From: an uncultured Pelagibacteraceae bacterium
GTDB lineage: Bacteria; Pseudomonadota; Alphaproteobacteria; Pelagibacterales; Pelagibacteraceae
Assembly: GCA_902607115.1 (NCBI GenBank)
Contig: CACLIZ010000001.1
Location: 1 to 64,000 of the forward strand
Length of the DNA: 64,000 bases
Direction of reading: 5' to 3'
Below, piece after piece: positions 26,678 through 33,508 of this stretch. The position numbers were made by a program, and so were the translations under genes. Position 1 is the first letter of the stretch. Every line of letters begins with the position of its first letter. The notes under the pieces were generated by a model. That model was not told the origin of the DNA and did no database searches. It saw nothing but the letters and a program-made list of their open reading frames with translations.

Positions 26678-27154
26678 ATGGAAAAGGAACCAATTACAAT
26701 TCAAGGTCTAGAAAAATTAAAACAAGAATTAAAATTTTTAAAAGAAGAAAAAAGACCAGAAATAATTAATGCAATTGCTGAAGCAAGATCACATGGAGAT
26801 TTAAAAGAGAATGCAGAATATCATGCAGCAAAAGAACAACAATCTCATAGTGAAGGAAGAATTCAAGAAATTGAAAACAGTATAGCTACAGCAAATGTAA
26901 TTGATGTCACAAAACTTAACAACAATGGTAAAGTTATATTTGGTTCAACGGTATCTTTACAAAATTTAGATACTAACGAAAAAATTGAGTATAAAATTGT
27001 TGGGAAAGATGAGGCAGACCTTGAGCAAAAATTAATTTATTTTAAATCACCAATAGGAAAAGGTTTAATTGGAAAAAATAGAAATGATTTAGTTGAAATA
27101 AAAACTCCAAATGGTGTTAAAAACTTTGAAATTTTTGATGTTAAATACGTTTAG
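26678..27154 (+). CDS. greA: Transcription elongation factor GreA
   Basis: 158 aa; [32 protein letters not shown]. Confidence 0.97.
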
Positions 27155-28424
27155 ATTTGACTATTTCTTCAATTTGATTATTTGAAATTTTAAAATTATT
27201 ATTTAACCATTGTTCTTCAATTTCTTTGAGTATAGACCCTAATAGTCTACCCTCTTGTAAATCAAATTTACTAATTAAATCCTTAGCATTGACTGGCATT
27301 ACAGGAATTTTAAATTCTATAAAATGTTTTTTTAAATCTATTAGATAGTTTTTATTTTTTTTAGTTGTTAGAATTTTATAATCTAAAATATCAATTAAAT
27401 TATCTTTCCCATTTTTTAATAGTATTTTTGATAAATTTTCTTTAGTAAAATGATCTTTTATTTTGTCTTCTGAAAATATTGAATTTAATAAAATAATTAT
27501 ATCTTTTTCTTTGTTTGATAAATTATATTTATAAATAAAGTAATCACAATCATCACCTTTATCTATTAATAACAATGACAAGATAAAAGCAAAATTTTTA
27601 TTTCTTAAAATGTCATTGCTTAATTTATCCAATTTATTTATTTTATTAGTATTTTTTAGTTCAGGAAAAATTAATAAAAATAACTCTTTAGAAATTTTAT
27701 CGGAATTAATTTTGCTAAAATTTTCAATGCAAATTATTTTTTTTAATTCTTGTAATTGTCTATCCTTAGAAACTTGTTTTAGACCACTTAGGTTTTGTTT
27801 TATAATTTTAACAGTGTTTTTATCATGTTTATTCCTGCTATAACCTAGAAAGAATCTTACATATCGAAGAATTCTTAGGTAATCTTCTTTTATCCTACTT
27901 GCTGGATCTCCAATAAATTTAATTAATCCATCATTTAAATCCTTCTTTCCATTAAATGGATCAAATAAATTTCCATCAATATCTGCATAAATTGCATTTA
28001 TAGTAAAGTCCCTCCTAGATGCATCTTCTAGCCAATTTTTTGTATACTCAACTTGAGCATGCCTGCCATCAGTTTTAACATCTTTTCTTAAAGAAGTTAT
28101 TTCAAAAGTTTTTTTATTTATAACTGCGGTAACTGTTCCATGAACAATTCCTGTTTCATAAAAATTGATATTATTTTTTTTTAAAACTTCTATTACATTC
28201 TGTGGTTCTAAATTTATTGATAAATCTATGTCGTTAATGATTTCATTATTAATTAATTTTCTTACACATCCTCCAACAAATCTTACCTCTGTTTCATCTG
28301 AGTAAGTGTTAAATGATTTGAATAAATCTTGAATTTCTTTTTGTGAAACTAGTTCTTTAAAATTAGTTTTATCTTTGAAAGTCTCTTTTTTTGATTTAAA
28401 TAATTTATTTATAAAATTAATCAT
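27141..28424 (-). CDS. cca: CCA tRNA nucleotidyltransferase / poly(A) polymerase family
   Basis: 427 aa; [50 protein letters not shown]. Confidence 0.93.
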
Positions 28425-28427
28425 ATA

Positions 28428-28501
28428 TGGCTGGGGCGCTAGGATTCGAACCTAGGATGGCGGTACCAAAAACCGCTGCCTTACCACTTGGCTACGCCCC
28501 A
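28428..28501 (-). tRNA. tRNA-Gln (anticodon TTG), CCA encoded
   Basis: Minus strand TGGGGCGTAGCCAAGTGGTAAGGCAGCGGTTTTTGGTACCGCCATCCTAGGTTCGAATCCTAGCGCCCCAGCCA; acceptor TGGGGCG/CGCCCCA, anticodon stem GCGGT/ACCGC, T-arm CTAGGTTCGAATCCTAG. Confidence 0.97.
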
Positions 28502-28534
28502 AAATTGTTTTTGATATATCACAAAAAAAAAGCT

Positions 28535-29377
28535 TTATATAGTTTTTGATACAATACTCCAATGATTTTTAAATTTTTTCTTAATTAATTTTAACCCATT
28601 TATAGCAGACTTTTTGTTTGAAAAATAAGCGACTATTACAGATCCTGAGCCAGTCATTCTGACAAATTTGACTTTATTAATATTAGACAAAAATATCTTT
28701 ATTTTTCCTAAAATTGGATAAAGTTTAAATGCTGGTATTTCTAAATCATTTTTAGCATACTTTAAAAATTGAATTTTAAAGACTTTGCTAGAAATTTTTA
28801 TTCTATTTTTAGAAAAAAATTTAAATCTTTTGTAAATTTCTTTAGTTGAACAGCCTACTTTTGGCTTTACCAAAAGTGCAAATAAAGCCATTTTTACATT
28901 ATATTTTTTGATACTTTTTTTATTAAATAAAATTAAGTTTTTACGATCTAATCCTAAAAACACATCAGAACCTATTTGATTGCAAATATTAAATATCTCT
29001 TTTTTTGATAGTTGAATTATTTTTTTTTTTAAAAAATAGTTTAAAAGAAATGCGGCGTTCATTGAGCCTCCACCTAGTCCTGACTGTTGTGGGATATTTT
29101 TCTTTACTTGAATTTTATATTTTTTTTTTAAAACAATTTTTTTATCTAAAATATCTAATAATTTTGAAATAGTATTTTTCTTATTTAAATTTTTAGAAAA
29201 AGGGCCAATAAATTTCACGATATGTTTTTTTTTATTTATTTGTTGGATATAAATTTCATCATAAAAATTTAAGAAACTAACTATACTTTCTATTTTATGA
29301 AATCCATCTTTCTCTTTTTTTAAAACATTCAAAGATAAATTAATTTTTGCATAAGATTTAATTAAAGTTTTTTTCAT
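28535..29377 (-). CDS. ispE: 4-diphosphocytidyl-2-C-methyl-D-erythritol kinase
   Basis: 280 aa; SYAKINLSLNVLKKEKDGFHKIESI, IPQQSGLGGGSMNAA, MTGSGS. Confidence 0.95.
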   Translation of the reverse strand: MKKTLIKSYAKINLSLNVLKKEKDGFHKIESIVSFLNFYDEIYIQQINKKKHIVKFIGPFSKNLNKKNTISKLLDILDKKIVLKKKYKIQVKKNIPQQSGLGGGSMNAAFLLNYFLKKKIIQLSKKEIFNICNQIGSDVFLGLDRKNLILFNKKSIKKYNVKMALFALLVKPKVGCSTKEIYKRFKFFSKNRIKISSKVFKIQFLKYAKNDLEIPAFKLYPILGKIKIFLSNINKVKFVRMTGSGSVIVAYFSNKKSAINGLKLIKKKFKNHWSIVSKTI

Positions 29378-32353: not shown

Positions 32354-32392
32354 ATCATACAACAAGACGAGTCCATTTTTTTCAATCTCTGG

Positions 32393-32421
32393 TTGACGTA
32401 GAATCCACGCTGGAGTCTAAT
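32393..32421 (+). promoter_or_regulatory. Candidate sigma70-like promoter of the ccrM-like gene: TTGACG-N17-TCTAAT, overlapped by GANTC sites
   Basis: TTGACG 32393-32398, 17-nt spacer, TCTAAT 32416-32421; GANTC at 32341-32345, 32369-32373, 32401-32405, 32413-32417; ATG at 32435. Confidence 0.6.
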
Positions 32422-32434
32422 TGTTTTTTTAAAA

Positions 32435-33508
32435 ATGGTTAGTAAAAATTTACATAACAAAATTATCAACGGGGATAGTATAAGAGAGTTAAAAAAAATT
32501 CCTGACGAAACATTTGATCTAATATTTGCAGATCCACCTTACAATTTGCAATTACAAAATAGTTTAATCAGACCAGATAGGTCAAAAGTAAATGCTGTAA
32601 GCGATAAGTGGGATCAATTTGAAAGCTTTAAATCATATGATAGGTTCACAAACGAATGGTTAACTGAATGCAAAAGAGTACTAAAGAAAAATGGATCGAT
32701 TTGGGTAATCGGGAGTTATCACAATATATTTAGAGTCGGCAAAATAATTCAAGATTTAGGTTTTTGGATATTAAATGATGTTATATGGAATAAAAACAAT
32801 CCAATGCCAAATTTTAGAGGCACTAGATTTACTAATGCTCATGAAACTTTAATATGGGCTTCAAAAAGTAAAAAATCAAAATATACTTTTAACTACCAAT
32901 CAATGAAATCTTTTAATGATGATTTGCAAATGAGATCTACTTGGAATTTACCCATATGTAATGGTAAAGAAAGATTGAAGAATAACGGAGTAAAAGTTCA
33001 TTCAACACAAAAACCAGAGGCTTTATTACACAGAATTGTTTTAGCCTCTTCAAATAAGGATCATTTTATTTTAGATCCGTTTTTAGGATCAGGAACAACT
33101 GCTACAGTTTCAAAAAAGCTAGGCCGAACTTATTTTGGAATTGAAAAAGAAAAAAAATATTTTGAAGCTGCTAACAAAAGAATAAAAAATACAAATATAA
33201 TTAAAGACGAATATTTAGATACAATCCAGAATAATAAGTCAAAACCAAGAATTCCTTTTGGTTCATTAATTGAATTAGGAGTGATTAAACCTGGAACAGA
33301 AATCTATGATCAAAAGAAAAAAATTTATGCAAAAGTCATGGTTGATGGAAGCGTCAAATATAAACAAAACGAAGGATCTATACATAAAGTGGCGGCCCAA
33401 ATATTAGGTGCTGAAAGCTGTAATGGTTGGACATATTGGCATTATCAATCGGGAAATAGTTTAAAACCAATTGATGAGCTTAGACAACGTCTAAGACCAA
33501 GAAATTAA
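32435..33508 (+). CDS. ccrM: CcrM-type adenine-specific DNA methyltransferase (predicted GANTC)
   Basis: 357 aa; ADPPYNLQLQN, FLGSGTTATVSKKLGR, C-terminal IPFGSLIELGVIKPGTEIYD…GWTYWHYQSG domain typical of CcrM. Confidence 0.95.
   Translation: MVSKNLHNKIINGDSIRELKKIPDETFDLIFADPPYNLQLQNSLIRPDRSKVNAVSDKWDQFESFKSYDRFTNEWLTECKRVLKKNGSIWVIGSYHNIFRVGKIIQDLGFWILNDVIWNKNNPMPNFRGTRFTNAHETLIWASKSKKSKYTFNYQSMKSFNDDLQMRSTWNLPICNGKERLKNNGVKVHSTQKPEALLHRIVLASSNKDHFILDPFLGSGTTATVSKKLGRTYFGIEKEKKYFEAANKRIKNTNIIKDEYLDTIQNNKSKPRIPFGSLIELGVIKPGTEIYDQKKKIYAKVMVDGSVKYKQNEGSIHKVAAQILGAESCNGWTYWHYQSGNSLKPIDELRQRLRPRN

Follow-up and report, generated by a model that had tools for sequence, protein, structure and literature searches.

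A tRNA-Gln gene lies a few nucleotides before cca across Pelagibacteraceae, in a layout that recalls mitochondrial tRNA punctuation

In mitochondrial genomes, tRNA genes abut the start codons of protein genes with few or no nucleotides in between, and they do so at several genes per genome, an arrangement described as tRNA punctuation, in which excision of the tRNAs generates the 5' ends of the mRNAs. Pelagibacteraceae (SAR11) resemble mitochondria in their gene layout, with tRNA genes that sit right against start codons at a number of loci per genome. The mRNAs would be expected to be leaderless in both cases. There are also clear differences. Only some of the SAR11 tRNAs, between about a quarter and a third, are placed in this way, and the host is a free-living bacterium with many promoters. 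In addition, the SAR11 tRNAs have an encoded CCA, and their 3' ends would depend on RNase E, whereas mitochondria use RNase Z (ELAC2).

Bacteria have mixed tRNA-protein operons of their own, examples being E. coli thrU-tyrU-glyT-thrT-tufB and the pairing of Trp tRNA with secE. These are similar to the SAR11 junctions in that a tRNA precedes a protein gene of the same orientation and a single precursor is expected, and the SAR11 genomes examined also hold tRNA-Gly-tuf (leader of 38–43 nt) and tRNA-Trp-secE (leader of 16–19 nt). By contrast, cca, hisS and similar SAR11 junctions leave 3–12 nt, which is too short for a usual ribosome binding site. Another point of comparison is Caulobacter, an alphaproteobacterium with many leaderless mRNAs that are translated well (PMC4117421). 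Like the cca message proposed here, these begin at the AUG or close to it and have no Shine-Dalgarno sequence; however, their 5' end originates from the transcription start (PMC4117421), whereas that of cca would originate from tRNA processing.

The tRNA-Gln/cca junction in the window

The window, i.e., the whole stretch of DNA that was analysed, comprises 64,000 nucleotides from a Pelagibacteraceae bacterium and has a GC content of 30%. A tRNA-Gln gene with anticodon TTG (UUG) is present on the minus strand at 28428–28501, as identified by ARAGORN, by Rfam (RF00005, 64.6 bits) and from the sequence itself. Direct reading shows that the tRNA has an encoded CCA (28430–28428), followed on the same strand by a 3-nt spacer, TAT (28425–28427), which is the putative 5' leader of a processed mRNA, and by the ATG start codon of cca (28424–28422). 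The earlier note, which had placed tRNA-Gln 3 nt before cca on the same strand, is therefore correct to the base. Its statement that ispE lies 33 nt upstream of the tRNA on the same strand is borne out as well by the sequence, the ORFs and the profiles: ispE (28535–29377, minus strand; NF011202 and TIGR00154, both under their cut-offs) ends at 28535, leaving a gap of 33 nt.

The cca ORF (27141–28424, minus strand) starts with ATG and encodes a protein of 427 residues with a PolyA_pol head domain (PF01743, E = 1.7e-29). The NCBIfam profile for CCA nucleotidyltransferase, NF009814, gives 182 bits, under its cut-off of 290 bits. The best relatives in the PDB are chains of the human mitochondrial CCA-adding enzyme, which match over nearly the full length with approximately 183 bits, while chains named poly(A) polymerase reach at most 58 bits. 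The gene, named CCA nucleotidyltransferase/poly(A) polymerase in the earlier note, can thus be resolved as encoding a class II CCA-adding tRNA nucleotidyltransferase and not a poly(A) polymerase. Ahead of the catalytic domain there is no further in-frame ATG, GTG or TTG, and conservation is recognisable in the N-terminal residues, which rules out a true start further downstream. Since the tRNAs already encode CCA, the role of Cca is probably confined to repair.

At its 3' end, cca is convergent with greA (26678–27154, plus strand; ORF list and profile matches). The 3' ends of both ORFs share 14 nt (27141–27154), so that there is no room for a terminator between them and the transcripts would overlap in antisense, unless they end inside the genes. 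Elsewhere in the window, an Rfam match to the bablM sRNA (32369–32438, plus strand; 62 bits versus a gathering threshold of 38) immediately precedes, and slightly overlaps, a DNA methyltransferase-like ORF that starts at 32435.

Conservation of the junction and of the gap before it

The cca loci of genomes from 13 Pelagibacteraceae genera and of 80 named records gave 134 distinct junctions, which share descent, so that the counts are not independent events. The earlier note had suggested a comparison of the junction across related genomes as a check, and the adjacency turns out to be kept, with tRNA-Gln directly preceding cca at 126 of the 134 distinct junctions. The adjacency is not due to chance, and the contact between tRNA and cca is a real, family-wide feature. 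It is absent in the sister family, which belongs to the same order, and at the 29 loci examined from other alphaproteobacterial families. At one of these 29 loci, the other strand carries a tRNA-Gln(TTG) at a distance of approximately 200 nt.

At the 126 direct junctions the spacer measures 3 nt (66 junctions), 4 nt (14), 5 nt (20), 6 nt (8), 7 nt (17) or 17 nt (1); 125 of them thus have 3–7 nt, and none has 0–2 nt. Its sequence is A/T-rich and varies widely among loci, and cca starts with ATG at every one of the first 90 loci that lacks the insertion described below. The length of 3 nt predominates in the genus of the window. A strict 3-nt rule can be rejected, since other genera have 4–7 nt, and 3 nt is not a strict minimum within the family either, because a tRNA-Leu junction in genome G009 has a spacer of 1 nt. 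In genus g5, which accounts for 8 of the 134 junctions, a GNAT acetyltransferase ORF of approximately 155 codons lies between tRNA-Gln and cca; direct contact is therefore not essential, which argues against an obligatory coupling of the two genes. The start of this ORF is perhaps a GTG located about 17 nt past tRNA-Gln. In two relatives, tRNA-Gln has an altered acceptor stem, with GTGGGCCAGCCA instead of GCGCCCCAGCCA at the same location, and in these two the cca frame is open across the entire tRNA gene.

Alignment of the gap between ispE and the tRNA revealed a conserved, probable extended -10 element, TGATATATC (28513–28521, minus strand; TGnTATA at 28521–28515). TGnTATA is found 15–28 nt ahead of tRNA-Gln, most commonly at 15–21 nt, in 112 of the 126 loci, compared to 5.5 loci expected from mononucleotide shuffles and none in a control stretch of ispE. 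The gaps that carry it are 31–38 nt long. The motif is absent in genera g7, g9 and g12, where the gap measures only 6–12 nt or so, and in a small number of loci from the main genus. Its form is that of an extended -10 promoter, with a predicted transcription start some 5–10 nt before tRNA-Gln. Because the conserved motif sits in the gap between ispE and the tRNA, the transcription unit is probably tRNA-cca rather than ispE-tRNA-cca, which amends the earlier note. Read-through from ispE as the source of the tRNA can be rejected for most genera on account of this element, and may apply in g7, g9 and g12.

Between tRNA-Gln and cca there is no room for a Shine-Dalgarno site, a promoter or a terminator. 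In a generic scan, the minus strand gave no sigma-70-like site within tRNA-Gln or shortly before it; the scan requires a -35 box and is for that reason also blind to the conserved TGnTATA element. The same scan gave no terminator-like site near the junction. The two genes thus have the adjacency of a bacterial tRNA-mRNA dicistronic unit, being on the same strand, 3 nt apart and without a promoter- or terminator-like site in between. It is very likely that tRNA-Gln and cca are co-transcribed, given that nothing fits in the spacer and that the scan gave no sigma-70-like site within the tRNA or shortly before it.

A proposed route from tRNA excision to the cca mRNA

The best account of these data, which we hold with moderate confidence, is a two-gene unit from which the tRNA would be excised, followed by leaderless translation of cca. 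tRNA-Gln and cca would be transcribed together from an extended -10 promoter of their own, located between ispE and the tRNA, and the short 5' leader of the tRNA would be taken off by RNase P. An RNase E-type endonuclease would cut the A/U-rich spacer right after the encoded CCA, yielding a tRNA with little if any 3' trimming left to do, along with a cca mRNA that bears a 5'-monophosphate. The AUG of the released message would be no more than 3–7 nt from the 5' end, and leaderless translation would follow. Initiation on the uncut RNA should be poor, because the folded tRNA ends 3 nt from the AUG, where it would hold ribosomes off, and because there is no room for a Shine-Dalgarno site; in the predicted fold, the acceptor stem stays paired near the cca AUG. 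The layout recurs in Pelagibacteraceae genomes and would have arisen under genome compaction. The proposal of the earlier note that 3' processing of the tRNA creates the 5' end of the cca mRNA is partly supported, in this reduced form: the geometry and the short spacers fit, and both ispE and a special feedback loop are dropped.

RNase E/G is present in 10 out of 10 genomes tested. In SAR11 genomes, all matches to RNase Z are far under the curated cut-off, and judging from these scores the enzyme may be absent. CCA is encoded by all tRNAs but one in the genome of the window and by all tRNAs in genomes G078 and G009, and such near-universal encoding fits 3' processing of the RNase E type. For an E. 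coli tRNA precursor, RNase E cleavage has been located 2 nt downstream of metU (PMC4191395). Several points speak against excision. The tRNA is needed far more than a repair enzyme, and most of the freed mRNA would therefore need to decay rapidly or be translated inefficiently. Moreover, short gaps arise from SAR11 compaction alone, one genus has GNAT in between, and g7, g9 and g12 are without the promoter-like element.

Other tRNA genes close to start codons

We measured the distance from the CCA of each tRNA to the next ATG on the same strand, with a threshold of 12 nt or less. In the genome of the window (an assembly of 892 kb that is 69% complete), 8 of 27 tRNAs fall within this distance, one of which, tRNA-Arg (8 nt), is doubtful, a later ATG being the likelier start. 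A complete genome from this genus has 7 of 30, a genome from another Pelagibacteraceae genus has 11 of 32, and the sister family has 3 of 27, all at 9 nt. None of the 28 tRNAs qualifies in a 1.2-Mb alphaproteobacterium of another family with 30% GC. As a control genome, the high-GC G199 was flooded by chance ORFs and was dropped, and G227 was used instead. The genes behind the close tRNAs include hisS, tig (trigger factor), NAD kinase, NDUFS4-like, phhB and a fatty-acid (acyl-)CoA ligase, and tRNA-His is located 4–6 nt before hisS at all 31 measured loci. With identical geometry at other tRNA-gene junctions, a layout specific to cca is rejected; the pattern resembles tRNA punctuation across the family more than a circuit made for cca. 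Tentatively, tRNA excision might serve Pelagibacteraceae as a general route to near-leaderless mRNAs. Between about a quarter and a third of the tRNA genes would then release an mRNA, those for Cca, histidyl-tRNA synthetase and trigger factor included, and RNase E and RNase P would gate part of the translation machinery.

The earlier note had also envisaged that tRNA processing sets the expression of the enzyme that matures tRNA ends. Such a dedicated circuit, in which the processing rate would tune Cca levels to tRNA maturation, has in its favour that the enzyme works on tRNA 3' ends, that the family has kept the tRNA-Gln/cca pair and that a second tRNA-related pair, tRNA-His/hisS, shares the geometry. 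However, the same geometry is found before the genes for trigger factor, NAD kinase, NDUFS4-like, phhB and acyl-CoA ligase, which are unrelated to tRNA, and GNAT breaks the adjacency in one genus. With an enzyme that probably acts in repair only on tRNAs that encode CCA, the direction of any feedback would be ambiguous as well. Special feedback on cca is not supported, and we consider a dedicated circuit very unlikely. It is also highly improbable that cca has its own promoter within the tRNA gene and is transcribed from there with a short leader. Bacterial promoters can sit in upstream genes, and a conserved tRNA sequence would also keep the distance from promoter to start codon steady, but the scan for sites with a -35 box gave no promoter-like site in the tRNA on the minus strand. 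A transcription start at the cca AUG would place a -10 hexamer about 7–12 nt before it, a position occupied by the GC-rich CCCCAG at the end of the acceptor stem, and by sequence nothing in CCCCAGCCATAT resembles such a hexamer. By eye, the best hexamer is TAGGTT, which matches at 3 of 6 positions and lacks a -35 box, and the conserved element is located upstream of the tRNA instead.

The remaining alternative is pure genome compaction, with the short gap as a by-product of deletion bias and cca translated from any RNA that crosses the junction, read-through included, so that tRNA processing would play no particular part. Gaps in SAR11 are indeed short throughout: in a 400-kb sample of G078, 42% of the same-strand protein-gene pairs overlap, 12% have gaps of 0–2 nt and 11% have gaps of 3–12 nt, with a median gap of 2 nt for same-strand genes, and the median intergenic length in P. 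ubique is 3 nt (PMC2704228). Drift of the cca spacer from 3 to 7 nt between genera and the tolerated GNAT gene also agree with compaction. Yet, while protein genes overlap so often, the cca junctions never drop below 3 nt, and ribosomes should be kept from initiating on uncut RNA by a folded tRNA only 3 nt ahead of the start codon. In addition, the control genome of equal size and GC content lacks such junctions. Overall, compaction by itself appears unlikely as the full explanation.

If mRNAs do begin at tRNA processing sites, as the excision account proposes, a free-living bacterium would share an arrangement with mitochondria, and genome compaction would be the pressure in both. The supply of tRNA would be tied one to one to that of mRNA, and exposure of the start codon would depend on tRNA maturation, in a family that ranks with the most abundant marine bacteria. 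We did not find this layout reported for bacteria in searches of the open-access literature.

A final observation concerns hisS, which occurs as two divergent types (approximately 45%–50% identical) inside one genus. The 4-nt junction with tRNA-His is present in both types, a pattern that hints at transfer or replacement of the gene with preservation of the tRNA-gene contact.
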